A stretch of DNA of 47,326 bases, from NCBI GenBank assembly GCA_031281945.1, contig JAITER010000079.1, forward strand, positions 1 through 47,326, written 5' to 3'. Source of the DNA: Spirochaetaceae bacterium. Its GTDB lineage: Bacteria; Spirochaetota; Spirochaetia; Treponematales; Breznakiellaceae. The position numbers and the translations under genes were made by a program. This document shows positions 40,088 through 47,326 of the stretch, in pieces. The notes below the pieces were generated by a model that ran no database searches, had not been told where the DNA came from, and saw only the letters and a list, made by a program, of their open reading frames with translations. Within the stretch, counting starts at the first letter, position 1; every line of letters starts with the position of its first letter.

Positions 40088-40918
40088 AACAACTCCTAAA
40101 AATCTAACGATTAACGCGGGGGCTTTGTTAAAACGCCGCGCCGCTTGATGTAAGAGTATACGTTAAAGGCGGGAAAAAAATAAGGGCTGTGAGCGGTTTT
40201 TACAAAAAGCGCGAATCAGGCCAAAACACGCCCGTTTTATTGCTTTAGCTCAGGCGGCGGCGAAATAAAACAATCAAATATTTACGCTAATTCTTGACGG
40301 TTCCTTAGCTCCGTTATTTGTAAACAAAGACGTTTACGCCTTGCAAATTTAGAGCCGCCCTTTACAGTTTTTTAGTTTACGGTGTATTTGTAAGGAAATC
40401 TTACCGCCGCGCCGCCGCAACTGACGCGGCTGCGCCCCTGGATTGGGCGTAACTTGCCGTTATGGACGGGGCGCGGGTTGAATATAAGGGAAAACGCGCA
40501 AAAAATCAATGCGTTGTAGCGAAACCGGCTTATGGGGGGGGGGGGGGGTAAACGCTTTAGATTGCGTTTTTAAAATCTTGCTCCTTGTAGATAAGTGCAT
40601 AAGGTATAAAGAAATATGGTGTGTTTTGTAAGATTGTCATGTGCGGCGCGGGATTTCTTCCATTTAAAAATACATTTTTACGTCATTTTACGCAACAAAA
40701 ACTTTAGGGATGTTGACGAGGCGGACAGGGCTTTGGAACGCGGCTTGCGCTTATGGCGCCTGGCGGCCCCTCGCCTTAAGAGCGCAAGCTATTTTTGAGA
40801 ATTGGTCTGCTAAAGCGGCCAAATTATGGCGAAAATACGCCCGGATCTCAATAATAAGAACGCTGGTGAAAAACGGCCTGAGCCAAGCGGTTGGGAGGGA
40901 GGCTTTAATTCAAAACAA
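40088..40918. other. Gene-free interval upstream of the glycan cluster
   Basis: About 830 bases with no supported gene. Frames at 40616-40798 and 40710-40922 have no ribosome binding site and no family resemblance. The interval holds the yebC promoter region, a G15 run (40534-40548) and alternating AT-rich and GC-rich stretches. The right end leads into a near-consensus promoter at 40919. Confidence 0.6.
40534..40548 (+). repeat. Homopolymer run of 15 G
   Basis: Fifteen G directly after AT, so an ATG abuts it, but no ribosome binding site precedes it and the frame closes after about 12 codons. It lies 371 bases upstream of the promoter at 40919. Confidence 0.9.
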
Positions 40919-40947
40919 TTGACTAGCGCGTTAAGAATCCATATAAT
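40919..40947 (+). promoter_or_regulatory. Strong promoter of the surface-glycan cluster
   Basis: TTGACT (40919-40924), a 17-base spacer and a perfect TATAAT (40942-40947). Transcription would start near 40954, just before AAAGGAG (40956-40961), which serves the leader ORF starting at TTG 40968. Confidence 0.85.
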
Positions 40948-40967
40948 CTCACGCAAAGGAGAAGATT

Positions 40968-41126
40968 TTGACTAAAGACTTACTAGGAAAACATTTAGCT
41001 GTAAGCAAACACACTCCCCCCCCCCCCCCGCCGCAAGAATTTAATTTTAGTTTTTATAAGTCCGTTTTACAAAAAACAAACGGTTCCGCGCCGTTTCCAG
41101 TTTATTTAACGGCGGCGGCTTCATGA
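40968..41126 (+). CDS. 52-codon leader ORF carrying a C14 run, coupled to the dehydrogenase gene
   Basis: A short reading frame with TTG start six bases after AAGGAG and immediately behind a near-consensus promoter. It reads MTKDLLGKHLAVSKHT, then a proline run from 14 C (41016-41029), then QEFNFSFYKSVLQ and so on to TGA 41124-41126. That stop overlaps the dehydrogenase ATG (41123-41125) as ATGA. The peptide matches no family I know. With one C more or fewer the frame would stop at 41042 or 41107 (present numbering), well short of the next start, and the dehydrogenase has no ribosome binding site of its own. I infer a phase-variable translational-coupling switch; the sequence shows the arrangement, not its operation. 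Confidence 0.65.
   Translation: MTKDLLGKHLAVSKHTPPPPPPQEFNFSFYKSVLQKTNGSAPFPVYLTAAAS
41016..41029 (+). repeat. Homopolymer run of 14 C inside the leader ORF
   Basis: Fourteen C in frame (proline codons) 16 codons into the leader ORF. A change of one unit alters where the leader terminates relative to the dehydrogenase start. Confidence 0.92.
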
Positions 41127-42292
41127 AAAAAATATGTATTATCGGCGGGTGCGGTCATGTAGGCGTCCCGCTGGGGCTGGCGCTTGCGGAACGGGGCTTT
41201 GACGTAACTCTAGTCGACGTCAACGCCGGAGCTGTAGAAAGCATAAACAACCGAAAACCGCCGTTTAAAGAAGCGGGCGCGGCGAAAATACTGCAAGACC
41301 GCATCGGAAAAAATTTGACCGCCACAACAAACGTGGAGGCGGTGAAAGAGCAGGATGCGGTTGTATTCGTCACCGGCACGCCTGTCGACGAACATCACAA
41401 CCCCAAAATCAACGACGTATTAAAAGTCGTCAGAACATATCTTGATTTGATGAACAAAGAACAGTTGGTGATTTTACGAAGCACTATTTTCCCTGGAACC
41501 ACCGGATTAATCGCCGAATTATTGCGCGATAAATTCGGTTCAGCCAAACTGGCTTTTTGCCCGGAACGTATTGTGCAAGGCGAAGGCGTCGAAGAAATCT
41601 TCAACCTGCCGCAAATTATCGCGCCGTCTTCGGAAGAAGCGTACATTGAGGCGAGCGCCGTCTTTTCAAAAATAGCGCCAAAAATAATACGGCTCGAGGC
41701 GAAAGAAGCGGAACTGGTGAAGCTCATCACAAACACCTGGCGTTATCTGGAGTTCGCCGCGGCCAACGCTTTCTACATGATGGTTGAACATGAAGGGCTG
41801 GATTTTTATACGGTGTACAACGCGCTAAAAGAAGACTACCCGCGGGCGAAACATTTTCCTTCCGCAGGGCTTGCGGCGGGCCCGTGTTTGTTCAAAGATA
41901 CGATGCAACTTTCCGCATTCTACCAGAACAACTTTTTCCTGGGGCAGTCGGCCATGCTGGTAAATGAAGGGTTGCCGAATTTTCTGGTTGATCAATTGGA
42001 AAAGAAGATGGGTTCTCTCGCGCATAAAAAAATAGCGTTGCTTGGCATGACGTTCAAGGCGAACAATGACGACGTCCGCGAAAGTTTATCGTTCAAGATA
42101 AAAAAATTGCTCGAATTTAAAATGGCGAAGCCGCTTACGCACGACCCTTACGCCGCCGGCGATTTTATGCCTTTGGACGAGGTCTTGAAACAGGCTGAAG
42201 GGGTTGTTTTGGGAACTCCGCACGATGAATATAAAAACATCGCGCTTTCCGTCCCATTCGTAGACTGCTGGGGTTTTTGGAAACGAGTTTAA
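41123..42292 (+). CDS. UDP-glucose/UDP-ManNAc 6-dehydrogenase family protein
   Basis: A 389-residue NAD-dependent nucleotide-sugar dehydrogenase that oxidises C6 of a UDP-sugar to the uronic acid. Seen in order: the Rossmann GGCGHVGVPLGLALAERG, VFVTGTPVDE, STIFPGTTG, CPERIVQGEG (WecC-like), and the catalytic Cys255 in GLAAGPCLFKDT, followed by GMTFKANNDDVRES. Substrate (UDP-Glc or UDP-ManNAc) cannot be decided by eye; the CPERI..G pattern leans to the ManNAc type. There is no Shine-Dalgarno site: the ATG overlaps the stop of the leader ORF. It is first of the glycan cluster; a hairpin follows. Confidence 0.9.
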   Translation: MKKICIIGGCGHVGVPLGLALAERGFDVTLVDVNAGAVESINNRKPPFKEAGAAKILQDRIGKNLTATTNVEAVKEQDAVVFVTGTPVDEHHNPKINDVLKVVRTYLDLMNKEQLVILRSTIFPGTTGLIAELLRDKFGSAKLAFCPERIVQGEGVEEIFNLPQIIAPSSEEAYIEASAVFSKIAPKIIRLEAKEAELVKLITNTWRYLEFAAANAFYMMVEHEGLDFYTVYNALKEDYPRAKHFPSAGLAAGPCLFKDTMQLSAFYQNNFFLGQSAMLVNEGLPNFLVDQLEKKMGSLAHKKIALLGMTFKANNDDVRESLSFKIKKLLEFKMAKPLTHDPYAAGDFMPLDEVLKQAEGVVLGTPHDEYKNIALSVPFVDCWGFWKRV

Positions 42293-42461: not shown

Positions 42462-43481
42462 ATGAAGATTCTAGTTACCGGCTCCGCGGGGTTTATATGC
42501 GGATACCTGGTGGAAGAGTTGCTGAAAAACGGGCATACGGTTGTCGGAATCGACAACTATTCCAAATACGGGCCGGTTAAAAAATCATACGACGGGAATC
42601 CTAACTACCAGTTTTATCAGCATGACATGAAGAACGTGGATTTTATAAAAGAATGCGCGGCGGACTGCGACCACATAGTCGCGGCGGCGGCGATGATAGG
42701 CGGAATATCATATTTCCACGAAATGGCGTATGAACTGCTCGCGGAAAACGAGCGTATATTAGCCGCGACTTTTGACGCAGCTATTTGGGCGTATAAAACG
42801 AAGAAGTTGCAAAAAATCACCGTGTTAAGTTCCAGCATGGTCTATGAATCCGCCGTCTCTTTCCCAAGCCGCGAAGGAGACGAGCGTAAATGCCCGCCGC
42901 CGTTAAGCACTTACGGCTTCCAAAAACTCGCCTCCGAATACTATTGCCAGGGGGCTTTTGAGCAGTACGGGCTGCCCTACACCATCGCCCGCCCGTTTAA
43001 CTGTGTGGGAACCGGAGAAAAACGGGCGCTTTGCGACAAAGAAATTTATTCGGGGAACATCGCTTTGGCGATGAGCCATGTCGTGCCGGATTTGGCGCAA
43101 AAAATCATACGCGGGCAGGATCCGTTGCGCATCCTGGGTTCCGGCGCCCAGATCCGTCATTACACATACGCAGGGGATTTGGCCCGCGGCATCCGCTTGT
43201 GCATAGAAAGCCCCGCCGCCCTTAACCAGGACTTTAATTTGTCAACGCCCGATTCCACCACCGTTTTGGAACTGGCCCAGGCTATATGGAAAAAGATAAA
43301 CCCCGGCAAACCGTTCCGTTATGTGTCAGACAAGCCGTACAAATACGACGTCCAAAAACGTACGCCTTCCGTTCAAAAGGCGAAAGACTTGCTTGGATTT
43401 TCGGCGGATACAAAACTTGACGCTATTTTGGATGAAGTGATTCCCTGGATAGCGGAGCAAATAAAGGCGGGAGGCATTTAA
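42462..43481 (+). CDS. NAD-dependent sugar epimerase/dehydratase
   Basis: A 339-residue extended short-chain dehydrogenase that works on nucleotide sugars. It has the Rossmann GSAGFICGYLVEELL at residues 7-21, AAAAMIGG, the SSSMVYES strand and the catalytic YGFQKLASEYY (Tyr-x3-Lys), then RPFNCVGTGEKRA and the substrate-side RHYTYAGDLARGI. Relatives include UDP-glucose 4-epimerase and GDP-sugar epimerases; the exact substrate is open. TAGGAG precedes the ATG. Its TAA stop overlaps by one base (TAATG) an ATG that begins the poly-C-linked methyltransferase frame. Confidence 0.9.
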   Translation: MKILVTGSAGFICGYLVEELLKNGHTVVGIDNYSKYGPVKKSYDGNPNYQFYQHDMKNVDFIKECAADCDHIVAAAAMIGGISYFHEMAYELLAENERILAATFDAAIWAYKTKKLQKITVLSSSMVYESAVSFPSREGDERKCPPPLSTYGFQKLASEYYCQGAFEQYGLPYTIARPFNCVGTGEKRALCDKEIYSGNIALAMSHVVPDLAQKIIRGQDPLRILGSGAQIRHYTYAGDLARGIRLCIESPAALNQDFNLSTPDSTTVLELAQAIWKKINPGKPFRYVSDKPYKYDVQKRTPSVQKAKDLLGFSADTKLDAILDEVIPWIAEQIKAGGI

Positions 43482-43484
43482 TGA

Positions 43485-43499
43485 CCCCCCCCCCCCCCC
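43485..43499 (+). repeat. Homopolymer run of 15 C between the ATG and the methyltransferase frame
   Basis: Fifteen C beginning two bases after ATG 43481-43483. As assembled, this ATG reads 19 codons and stops at TGA 43538-43540; with 14 or 17 C it would join the methyltransferase frame. Confidence 0.92.
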
Positions 43500-43550
43500 G
43501 CGCAAACCGGCGCGTCAAAAATACAGGAGAAAGAGATTGACGCCAGGCGC

Positions 43551-44192
43551 TTGTACCATAACAGGTTTGATAAAAAAGAGGGCGCGAAACAGGCTGTGTG
43601 GAAGACGCTGTGCGTTCATTTTTTCCAACGTTTCACGCCTAAAAAGGGGCGCGTCATGGATATAGCCGCCGGAAATTGCGAGTTCATAAATCATATTGAA
43701 GCAAACGAAAAAATCGCTTTCGATATTAACGGGGACGCCGCTTTATTCGCCAAACCGGACGTCCGGTTTATTCACGACACGTTTTTTAATATGGGAAGCT
43801 ATGCGATTGGCGAATTTGAGGTTGTTTTCGCGTCAAACATCTTTGAACATCTGGATTCCAAAGAACAGGTTGTTTCCGCGATGAAGCTCTGCTATGAACG
43901 GCTTGTTCCGGGAGGAAAACTCCTTGTATTGCAGCCTAACATTAAATACACAGGCGGCGCGTACTGGGATTTTATCGACCATAAAACGCCGTTAACCGAT
44001 AAATCCGTCGTCGAAGCCGGACTTTTATGCGGGTTTAAGGCGGCGCGCGTTTTGCCGCGGTTTTTACCATACACAACTCGCTCCCGTCTGCCGCAACATC
44101 CGGCGTTTGTTTGGCTATATTTGAAGACGCCCCCGGCCTGGGCTGTATTTGGCAAGCAATCTTTTATAGTTCTGGAAAAACCCCGTGAATAG
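43551..44192 (+). CDS. SAM-dependent methyltransferase, likely phase-variable (out of frame with its ATG as assembled)
   Basis: A 213-residue class I methyltransferase: motif I is VMDIAAGNCEFINH, followed by FEVVFASNIFEHL and LVPGGKLLVLQPN. It probably modifies a sugar of the surface glycan. The coordinates start at an in-frame TTG without a good ribosome binding site. The same frame stays open upstream to the C run and encodes natural-looking sequence (ASKIQEKEIDARRLYHNRF), so the true N-terminus lies upstream. With 14 C the protein would begin at ATG 43481 and gain about 23 residues; with the 15 C shown, that ATG is out of frame. An ATT codon at 43536 preceded by AGGAG is a second possible start. 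The next gene overlaps its stop by eight bases. Confidence 0.8.
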   Translation: MYHNRFDKKEGAKQAVWKTLCVHFFQRFTPKKGRVMDIAAGNCEFINHIEANEKIAFDINGDAALFAKPDVRFIHDTFFNMGSYAIGEFEVVFASNIFEHLDSKEQVVSAMKLCYERLVPGGKLLVLQPNIKYTGGAYWDFIDHKTPLTDKSVVEAGLLCGFKAARVLPRFLPYTTRSRLPQHPAFVWLYLKTPPAWAVFGKQSFIVLEKPRE

Positions 44193-45279
44193 CGTAAACA
44201 TCATCATTCCGGTGTACAACGAAGCGGAAAACATACGCCGCGCCGTTCTTGGCATAGAGGCCGCCGCAACCATGCCGCATAACATAATGATTGTGTACGA
44301 CGGGGAAGAAGACGATACTGTGCCGGTTGTAAAAGAAATGCAAAAAACGGCGCCCGGAATCGAGCTTGTAAAAAACAAATACGGGAAAGGCCCGTTAAAC
44401 GCGATAAAAACAGGGTTGGAAGCCGCGAACGGGACTTACGCGCTTGTTACGATGGCGGATTTATCCGACCCGCCTGAAGTTATGAACGCGCTGTACGAAA
44501 AGGCTGAAGCTGAAAACGCGGATATTGTGTGCGCTTCCCGCTACATGAAAGGCGGCAAACAGTCGGGCGGGCCGTTTTTTAAAAGCCTCCTTTCCCGCAT
44601 AGCCGGTCTTTCGTTGCGTTACGCAGCCAAACTTCCCACCCATGACGCGACTAACAGTTTTAAACTGTACCGCGTTTCATTCCTAAAAACACAAACAATA
44701 GAAAGCTCAGGCGGTTTTGAGCTGGGCCTGGAGTTGGTCGCGAAAGCTTTCGCCGGCGGCTATAAAATCGCCGAGACGCCTACAACATGGACGGAGCGGG
44801 AGGCGGGAAAGTCAAACTTCCGGCTTTTAAAATGGTTAAAAAATTACATACACTGGTATATTTACATCTTTACGGCGCGAAAAAAAGGGATTATGCGTTA
44901 CGCGCCGCGCTTTGTTTTTTACGCTGCGGCGGGCGGCGTATGCGCCCTAATCAACTGGTCGTTTTTTTATATTTTGCATTACTTAGCCCATATCAATTAT
45001 TTGCCCGCCGCGGCTGTTAGCTTTTGTTTTTCCACTACGGCGAATTACGCTTTGAGCTCCCTTATTTTTAAATCAAAAGGTCGGCGAAAACTGGCCGAAT
45101 ATGTTTTGGTTTTGTTAGCAAGCGCGGCGGCCCTTTCCATCGATTTGGGGGTTATGTACGCGCTGATTGAGCGCCTTGATTTTTCGCCTATGGCCGCGAA
45201 GATTTTGGGAACCGGAAGCGCGTTTTTATTCAACTACTCGGCAAGGCAGTTTTTTATATTTTCGCCGGAAGAAAAATAA
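44185..45279 (+). CDS. GT2 glycosyltransferase fused to a GtrA-like membrane domain
   Basis: A 364-residue fusion. Residues 1-230 are a dolichyl-phosphate-mannose-synthase-like family 2 transferase (VNIIIPVYNEAENIRR, the DGEEDD and MADLSDPPEVM acidic motifs, and TWTEREAGKSNFRLLKW), which would make a polyprenyl-phosphate sugar. Residues about 235-360 are four membrane helices of the GtrA/DPMS2 type (FVFYAAAGGVCALINWSFFYIL, ending NYSARQFFIF), which anchor the enzyme or help flip the lipid-linked sugar. The start is GTG inside the end of the methyltransferase gene. The lipid-linked sugar would suit a GT-C-type enzyme such as the next gene may encode. Confidence 0.9.
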   Translation: MNSVNIIIPVYNEAENIRRAVLGIEAAATMPHNIMIVYDGEEDDTVPVVKEMQKTAPGIELVKNKYGKGPLNAIKTGLEAANGTYALVTMADLSDPPEVMNALYEKAEAENADIVCASRYMKGGKQSGGPFFKSLLSRIAGLSLRYAAKLPTHDATNSFKLYRVSFLKTQTIESSGGFELGLELVAKAFAGGYKIAETPTTWTEREAGKSNFRLLKWLKNYIHWYIYIFTARKKGIMRYAPRFVFYAAAGGVCALINWSFFYILHYLAHINYLPAAAVSFCFSTTANYALSSLIFKSKGRRKLAEYVLVLLASAAALSIDLGVMYALIERLDFSPMAAKILGTGSAFLFNYSARQFFIFSPEEK

Positions 45280-45291
45280 AGGAAATGAATT

Positions 45292-47326
45292 ATGAAAATC
45301 GAAAATCTCCTAAAAAAGATCCCGGAGCGGAAAATAAACGCGGGATTGCGAATAACGGCTTTGGCCGGCGCCGCGGTCTGCATCGCCGTGTTTTTTATAC
45401 CGGCGGCGCGTTCCGCAATCATCCAGTTTTTTGAAATCCTGCTGGGCCGCCGGCTTAATCCCCCGCACTGGGACGGCCTGCTCGCAAAATGGGCGCCTAC
45501 CGGGTTGCTTTTATGCGCGGTTATGGCGCTCATCGCCGAAAGAAAACGTCCGGTAATACTCAAATGGCTCGCCCGCGTTAAAAAACAATTGAATAATCAT
45601 AAAAAGCTGATTATCACGGCGTTCTTTGTTTTAATGACGGTAAATTTTTTAAAGTCCCTGAATTTGCCGGCCGCGGGCGCCGGGCTTGATCCTTCATGGA
45701 AGTGGGCCGTCAATAATATAGCCTATAACCATCAGTACACATTCGGAAAAGACGTAACTTTTACATACGGCCCTTTGGGATATTTGTTTGAAAGTCAACA
45801 TTACGCCGAAACCATTATACAGGGAATAGCGTTAAACGTTTTTTGCGTAGGCGTTATATTGCTGTTATTCTATTTGAATTACAAAAAGAAGATGTATTCA
45901 ATTCAGAAGCTGTTCATATTCAGTTTATTTCTGTTTATTTTTACTGGAATTATTTCATGCGAATGGATATGGAATATAATGCTTTTTTTTCTGTTTTCCA
46001 CGTGTTATTTATTGCGGGAAGACAAACGCCTCCGCTTCCCTCTCATAATTTGCGCGGGCTTTTTGAGCGCCTTTTCCCTGCTACTTAAATTCAACACCGC
46101 GGTTTTAGCCGCCGCCCTCTCAGGCGCCCTGGCTCTTATGCTCTTGCTGCGCGGCGGTAAAAGGCTGTTTGCGTGGTATATAGGCCTGTTTTTCCCCGCG
46201 TACATCGCTTTTACGGCCGCCGGCTCCGCGTTCTTTTTCAAAAATATAAATAATTTTATTGTGTGGTTGCAAATGTCCGTGGAAATAGCCGGAGGGTTTA
46301 GCTCCGCTATGGTTGTAAAGGGTTTATTTATTTTTACGGCGGCCGCAGTTCTTATAATAATTATATATTTGCGCTTCGCGTATACGCAAAAGAAGGAAAA
46401 TGTTTTCGCGTTGTGCGTCATAGGGACGGCCGTCTTGTTTTTTTCGTTTAAGCACGGTTTTGTGCGGCAGGACGGGCACATGCTCAGTTTTTTTACTGCG
46501 GTTCCTTTTTTAACAGGATTTCTTTTTTTATTTTCTCCGCCAAGCTCTTACAAAAAAAGCCGCGCTATGTTTCAAACAACCGTTTTTTTATGTCTTTTGG
46601 GCGCCGTCAACATAGTCTTTATCCCCGGCCTTATAAAAGGCGTTTTTAACAACGCTTATCTTATCACTCAATTGGGGAAAAATTATAAGACGTTTAACGA
46701 AAGAAAAATGGAAGGCCCAAAAGCGGACGCGCTTCCCGCCGAATGGAACGCTAAAATAGCGGACTCCTCCATTCAGGCGACGCCCTGGGAGCTAAGTTAC
46801 GCGGCGGCGAATCATTGGAAAGGCTGGCGGCCAAATCCGGTTATGCAATTATACAGCGTTTATACAAAAAAACTTGACGAATACAGCGCCGCCTCTTTTG
46901 CGCCGGAAAACGCGCCGCGTTTTATACTGCTGGAATATTACGCGATTGACGGGCGCAATATGTTTGTAGACTCCCCCGCGACATGGAACGCCATCCTGCC
47001 CAATTATACAATCTTGACGCGGGATGAAAGCAGGGCGCTGTTGTCAAAAAAAGACGCCCATAAATCATTAAATTTCGAGCCGGTTTTTTCCGCCTCCTAT
47101 AAATTTAATGAGACGATACCCGTTCCGCAATCTCCGGATCCGGTTTACGCGAAAATTATTATTAAAGATTCGATTTTTGGCAAACTTGCGACGACTCTGT
47201 TCCGGGGGAATCCTCCCTCCATGACCGTTAAATATCATGACGGAGCGCCGGGGGGGGGGGGGGGGTGTAAAATGTTTTCGTTTAAACGCGGTTACGTTGC
47301 AAAACCCCGCGATGCTGAATTACATC
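45292..47326 (+). CDS. Large multi-pass membrane protein, GT-C glycosyltransferase-like; runs off the window
   Basis: At least 678 codons from ATG 45292 (AAGGAA upstream) to the window edge without a stop, so the C-terminus is missing. About ten membrane helices fill the first 430 residues; the rest is a soluble, probably periplasmic domain. An early loop reads GLDPSWKWAVNN...FGKDVTFTYGPLGYL; an acidic residue in the first periplasmic loop and this DxSW/TYGPLG pattern recall GT-C enzymes that use polyprenyl-phosphate sugars. The family assignment is by eye. Near residue 654 the frame crosses 16 G, read as Gly codons. With 15 G the alternative frame is also open to the edge; with 17 or 14 G it meets TAA at once. 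It directly follows the GT2-GtrA gene, which could make its donor. Confidence 0.75.
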   Translation, partial: MKIENLLKKIPERKINAGLRITALAGAAVCIAVFFIPAARSAIIQFFEILLGRRLNPPHWDGLLAKWAPTGLLLCAVMALIAERKRPVILKWLARVKKQLNNHKKLIITAFFVLMTVNFLKSLNLPAAGAGLDPSWKWAVNNIAYNHQYTFGKDVTFTYGPLGYLFESQHYAETIIQGIALNVFCVGVILLLFYLNYKKKMYSIQKLFIFSLFLFIFTGIISCEWIWNIMLFFLFSTCYLLREDKRLRFPLIICAGFLSAFSLLLKFNTAVLAAALSGALALMLLLRGGKRLFAWYIGLFFPAYIAFTAAGSAFFFKNINNFIVWLQMSVEIAGGFSSAMVVKGLFIFTAAAVLIIIIYLRFAYTQKKENVFALCVIGTAVLFFSFKHGFVRQDGHMLSFFTAVPFLTGFLFLFSPPSSYKKSRAMFQTTVFLCLLGAVNIVFIPGLIKGVFNNAYLITQLGKNYKTFNERKMEGPKADALPAEWNAKIADSSIQATPWELSYAAANHWKGWRPNPVMQLYSVYTKKLDEYSAASFAPENAPRFILLEYYAIDGRNMFVDSPATWNAILPNYTILTRDESRALLSKKDAHKSLNFEPVFSASYKFNETIPVPQSPDPVYAKIIIKDSIFGKLATTLFRGNPPSMTVKYHDGAPGGGGGCKMFSFKRGYVAKPRDAELH
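47250..47265 (+). repeat. Homopolymer run of 16 G inside the last gene
   Basis: Sixteen G within the coding frame, read as CCG then five GGG codons before TGT. The window ends 61 bases later, which may reflect assembly trouble at the run. Confidence 0.92.

Follow-up and report, generated by a model that had tools for sequence, protein, structure and literature searches.

A run of 14 C lies within a short leader open reading frame (ORF) upstream of a nucleotide-sugar dehydrogenase gene in the window that we analyzed (the whole of contig G000:C51, 47,326 nucleotides), and we give about even credence to the reading that this tract, in a translated leader, would serve as a slipped-strand phase-variation switch of the glycan operon that follows. 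We observed the anatomy of this leader, a distinct class of tracts to which its C-run belongs, conservation of tract position, promoter and coupling frame before dehydrogenase orthologues, and the recurrence of such leaders in relatives. The same tract site in three species, in DNA that is otherwise diverged, suggests an on/off switch, as yet unproven, that works by way of an upstream mini-gene. The window belongs to an uncultured, Treponema-family MAG from the termite gut (genome G000, 2.49 Mb in 99 contigs), and the nearest named relatives of its dehydrogenase are found in Treponema/Spirochaetaceae MAGs.

The leader ORF and its operon

A sequence-only reading of the window had described the leader, and all of its elements are present, on the + strand. 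They comprise a sigma-70-type promoter, TTGACT-N17-TATAAT, at 40919-40947 (11 of 12 consensus positions in the promoter scan; the best of five promoter-like hits in the region, where shuffles yield 1.3); a Shine-Dalgarno (SD) sequence, AAAGGAG, at 40955-40961 (duplex energy -9.2 kcal/mol, with a stronger SD in only 16% of genes); a 52-codon ORF with a TTG start at 40968, extending to 41126 and having no Pfam match; a C14 homopolymer inside it at 41016-41029, read as proline codons; and the letters ATGA at 41123-41126, in which the leader stop TGA (41124-41126) overlaps the dehydrogenase ATG (41123). Changing the C-count by one base alters the leader reading frame and shifts the leader end, which falls at +4 relative to the dehydrogenase start with 14 C, at -13 with 13 C and at -78 with 15 C; the distances of 81 and 16 bases given earlier for the two off-frame stops agree with these values, being 78 and 13 when counted from the end of the stop.

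The dehydrogenase (41123-42292; UDPG/GDP-mannose dehydrogenase family by PF03721, PF00984 and PF03720, with TIGR03026 above its cut-off) is the first gene of the operon. Behind it on the + strand lie an NAD-dependent epimerase/dehydratase (42462-43481, by Pfam), which is directly 3' of the dehydrogenase also at loci L058, L059 and L060; a methyltransferase-like gene (43481-44192; weak Methyltransf_23/11/12 matches); a family 2 glycosyltransferase (GT2) with a GtrA domain (44185-45279, by Pfam); and an ORF for a large predicted membrane protein that runs off the contig (45292-47326). The functions found near tracts concern the cell surface: nucleotide-sugar dehydrogenase, epimerase, methyltransferase and GT2, and in relatives FkbM methyltransferase and outer membrane protein (OMP). 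The methyltransferase-like gene has a frame switch of its own. Its ORF is preceded by the SD GGAGG, its ATG at 43481 overlaps the epimerase stop, and a C15 tract at 43485-43499 (+ strand) follows ATG-A, giving ATG-ACC-C15. At C15 the open frame of 43485-44192 is shifted by one base relative to this ATG, and C14 or C17 would bring the two into phase, so that the gene would be OFF at the assembled length; as read from the letters, this tract is a classical in-frame phase switch of the ordinary type.

In the mechanism that we propose for the leader, the strong promoter would give an mRNA with the leader as its first ORF. With one class of C-counts (modulo 3), ribosomes would cross the tract and terminate on the ATGA at the dehydrogenase start, and this termination would open the structured ribosome-binding region of the dehydrogenase and permit re-initiation (the ON state, at 14 C in the window); with the other two classes the stop would come 13 or 78 bases earlier and dehydrogenase translation would drop (OFF or low). 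The leader peptide is probably unimportant, and what matters would be the act of translating the leader. Translation of the leader, variation of tract length and a dependence of dehydrogenase output on that length are what we infer from the arrangement.

Conservation before dehydrogenase orthologues

The two closest orthologues of the window dehydrogenase, L058 (85%) and L059 (78%), have the same arrangement. A coding-strand C14 lies 93 bp upstream of the gene in the window, 100 bp upstream in L058 and 98 bp upstream in L059, and in all three the tract is preceded, on its own strand, by an 11-of-12 promoter (68-127 bp away in the window and L059, and well upstream in L058). The leader starts in L058 and L059 have no SD, so that leaderless initiation would be needed there. 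Once the tract is masked, the three loci have leaders that do not align with one another, and we rejected a conserved leader peptide on this ground. In each of them a single frame out of three leads from the tract to the dehydrogenase start, where it ends at ATGA; all three loci keep this coupling frame free of stops along the full 94-101 nt, and both other frames close before the gene. The ATGA overlap taken alone is weak evidence, and in shuffles the coupling frame at the window is open by chance in 16% of cases; for the three dehydrogenase leaders together the chance is 0.16 x 0.16 x 0.26 = 0.007. Coupling at ATGA calls for C14 in the window and in L058 and for C15 in L059, which puts the assembled lengths of the window and L058 in the ON class and that of L059 in the OFF class.

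In the dehydrogenase tree the window, L058 and L059 form a clade, with L032 outside it and then the tract-less L239 and L060. L032 is a near relative (82% identity over the matched part) that has only C7 and no ATGA coupling, and a family search for further orthologues found the dehydrogenase without a tract in G158, G176 and G045. Leader position and stop overlap are kept across homologous loci within the three-species clade, and the idea of a leader-borne switch survived this comparison.

The sequence-only reading had also held that the dehydrogenase lacks a ribosome binding site of its own. This has to be qualified: an SD-like GGCGGCGG is present at 41111-41118 (+ strand; -5.0 kcal/mol against the anti-SD), but it is predicted to be base-paired. 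Its strength is about the median among 557 ATG genes of the G000 set, and by duplex energy the corresponding SD is strong in L058, L059 and L032. With an SD of its own, the gene might be translated independently of the leader, both in the window, where this SD is of average strength, and in the relatives, where it is strong. Predicted accessibility of the dehydrogenase SD is among the lowest 4% of genes in the window, the lowest 1% in L058 and the lowest 19% in L059, so that burial is strongly predicted in two of the three clade species and less so in L059; in L032 the SD is predicted to be open (84th percentile of accessibility). In predicted folding the accessibility is almost constant from 10 to 18 C, and an effect of tract length would therefore be exerted by way of the reading frame, not of folding. 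In L059, pairing between the C-tract and the dehydrogenase SD is predicted; we considered a hairpin of tract and SD as a conserved length sensor and rejected it, because it occurs in L059 only and accessibility is near-constant across C-counts. The claim that the C-count sets the delivery of ribosomes to the dehydrogenase stands in part: the distinct class of tracts, the conserved position, promoter and frame, the predicted burial of the SD and the classical frame switch in the methyltransferase ORF of the operon speak for it, whereas the gene's own SD, the absence of general coupling over all tracts (see below) and the arrangement in L032 speak against it.

Tracts and poly-C leaders across genomes

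The C14 of the leader is part of a distinct genome-wide class of tracts, and is one of many. In 1.28 Mb of G000 we counted 9 C/G runs of length 8, 1 of 9, 3 of 10 and 2 of 11, and 8, 5, 21, 23 and 11 runs at lengths 12 to 16, with a peak at 14-15 (the analysis took in roughly half of G000 and, from genome G041, 0.41 Mb, in contigs chosen for their tracts). Because run lengths in G000 are bimodal, the C14 is not a chance run; because it is one of about 140 C/G runs of at least 11 in the whole genome (the largest number among the 40 relatives that the search covered), a tract by itself is not unique to the dehydrogenase leader. The tracts that we placed in G000 (n = 76) are mostly intergenic, although genes take up about 76% of the sequence. 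When all tracts are pooled, extension in frame into the next gene and stop-start coupling to it are no more frequent than chance would give, and we dropped the idea of a general placement of tracts in frame with the gene that follows or in coupling to it. Of 67 tracts in G041, 52 have a length of exactly 14; slippage by itself might not produce so sharp a distribution, and assembly could be partly responsible for it. Loci in both ON and OFF classes are seen across single MAG assemblies. No mutL match was obtained in G000, the genome with the most tracts of the 40, at E <= 1e-3 (the genome is 95% complete, and absence is not proven), and for MutS the match stops at 799 of 840 positions.

Leaders with a promoter, a start and a C-tract recur beyond the dehydrogenase. 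In the genome of L059 (G041, identical to G094), at least seven C-tracts lie behind a promoter of 10-11 of 12 positions and a leaderless ATG, 6-9 nt after the -10 box, whose frame is open to the tract. Over three genome sets, such leaderless ATG leaders are open to the tract at 10 of 158 tracts on the C strand and at 0 of 170 on the G strand. Promoters of 11-12 of 12 positions in G000 and G041 are followed by an excess of ATG 5-7 nt after the -10 box, which suggests that leaderless mRNAs are common in these treponemes. Some promoter-leader starts are also duplicated within the genome (L243 and L259 are 78% identical over about 83 bp), and the dehydrogenase leader is 76% identical over 93 bp to a second leader 6.4 kb away. 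A pattern search of 200 genomes of the family found the combination of promoter, ATG and poly-C leader in 40. At 74 unique places in 37 genomes, the ATG frame stays open for about 20 codons in 64 and the other two frames in 26 and 31; part of the 74 may be ordinary leaderless genes whose N-terminal part holds a tract. With one place per genome the counts are 32 of 37, against 14 and 14. Substitutions within paralogous leader families show no bias toward the third codon position (53 against 44 and 38, p = 0.28), so the open frame seems to be kept and the peptide not.

In three further leaders the long frame reaches to the start of the gene behind it and ends there; these genes encode a transketolase N-terminal subunit at L250 (stop ending at +11), a radical SAM protein at L275 (+8) and an FkbM methyltransferase at L127 (+7). 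Among leaders with a promoter, a start and a tract, the stop falls at the start of the next gene in 6 of 10, where 1.65 are expected from genes with free upstream DNA as controls (p = 0.002, for a leader class defined after examples had been seen and with the start of L275 corrected by hand); counting the dehydrogenase once gives p = 0.023, and leaving the dehydrogenase cases out gives p = 0.067. These controls replaced those of an earlier test, which used operon genes and was uninformative. Five other leaders, of which four are in G041 and one is in G001, have a long frame that stops well short of the next gene, which encodes an OMP, a lipoprotein or similar; here polarity or another mechanism would have to act, if anything does. 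We propose tentatively, and with less than even confidence in the two statements jointly, that a promoter, a leaderless start and a short poly-C ORF may make up a portable module in termite-gut treponemes, and that this module may be placed before glycan, OMP and lipoprotein genes, where the frame of the leader, and not that of the gene, would set expression via re-initiation or polarity.

Alternative explanations and known systems

The main alternative is that the arrangement is a chance ORF over a neutral tract: intergenic C/G tracts abound, perhaps through weak mismatch repair, one of them would have fallen in a 5' leader, and any gene that starts with ATGA supplies a TGA in frame. The position of most of the roughly 140 G000 tracts between genes, the missing mutL match, the absence of a general frame enrichment over tracts and the 16% of shuffles that leave the window's coupling frame open all fit this explanation; it does not account for a tract of equal position, strand and length before the dehydrogenase in three species without flank similarity, nor for one kept where tracts are few (about 25 in the 3.1 Mb of the genome of L058), and the promoter, the frame and the predicted SD burial are consistent across the clade. 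We regard it as rather doubtful. An effect at the RNA level, independent of frame, in which tract length would tune an sRNA target or mRNA stability in the 5' leader, seems to us improbable: near-constant SD accessibility from 10 to 18 C argues against it, the pairing of tract and SD predicted in L059 is not conserved, and the open coupling frame would be left unexplained, even though the tract sits in the transcribed leader ahead of surface-glycan genes, promoter-linked tracts are mainly on the C strand, and the sRNA RepG at the tlpB G-repeat of Helicobacter pylori is a precedent (PMC8295292).

Transcriptional phase variation, with the tract changing promoter geometry as at tpr and tp0126 of Treponema pallidum, has a poly-G precedent in the same order (PMC7864442), and two tracts in G041 have a position of this type: L245 (11553, - strand) and L274 (1124, + strand) each have, 240-270 bp ahead of paralogous genes (MKNKSFLFLIAALAL...), a C14 immediately 5' of a TATAAT box, an arrangement that looks like promoter-type phase variation. 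At the dehydrogenase, a tract within the promoter spacer was rejected since 68 bp separate the end of the promoter from the tract. In the window and L059 the best promoter is 68-127 bp 5' of the tract, in L058 it is also well 5', and no strong promoter overlaps the tract; because the promoter is at least 68 bp before it, an effect of the T. pallidum type fits poorly, and we consider it very improbable here.

Slipped-strand switches, translational coupling and upstream ORFs (uORFs) are each already known; phase variation has been described mostly in pathogens, usually with the switch inside the frame of the switched gene or in its promoter. The reading of the leader as a translated switch shares with the homopolymer (SSR) switches of Neisseria, Campylobacter and Helicobacter a long C/G tract whose length modulo 3 sets the frame, with surface-glycan genes adjoining; unlike in those coding-frame switches, the tract lies in a separate leader ORF and the enzyme's own frame is never broken. 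With ATGA translational coupling and bacterial uORFs it has in common a leader stop that overlaps the start and an SD that is predicted to be buried and that termination would open; known uORFs sense metabolites or conditions, whereas in this leader a hypermutable tract would determine the frame. The poly-G tracts of T. pallidum (tprE/G/J, tprL and tp0126) likewise belong to the Treponematales and lie upstream of surface genes, but they have 7-11 G in or beside the promoter and act on transcription (PMC7864442), whereas the dehydrogenase leader has about 14 C in a transcribed leader at least 68 bp after the promoter. H. pylori tlpB-hp0102 also has a variable homopolymer in an mRNA leader, in an operon with an LPS glycosyltransferase, but its control is graded, by the antisense sRNA RepG, and without leader ORF coupling (PMC8295292). 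In the literature that we searched, which includes few subscription journals, we found no description of a leader ORF that is phase-variable and coupled to the gene downstream of it. If the reading is true, any downstream gene could become phase-variable with its protein untouched, and surveys limited to tracts in annotated genes or promoters would miss leader-ORF switches; tract-rich uncultured gut symbionts (the load in termite-gut symbionts reaches about 230 tracts per genome) offer a natural test.

Some further tracts were noted in passing. The window holds five C/G tracts, the leader C14 among them; a G16 (47250-47265) lies inside the ORF of the large membrane protein, and a G15 (40534-40548) and a C14 (3339-3352) are intergenic. 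L121 (623, - strand) and L148 (10432, + strand) are paralogous genes with ATG-TTA-C15 or C16 near the start, predicted to be classical frame switches whose C-counts differ within one genome. Similar flanks (ttaacatttaacaatgaagtta / gttgtttttaacgggcgtttcttat) occur at the tracts L101 5640, L107 394, L123 1347 and L134 8638, where the C-tract is, judging by these flanks, carried by a repeated element.
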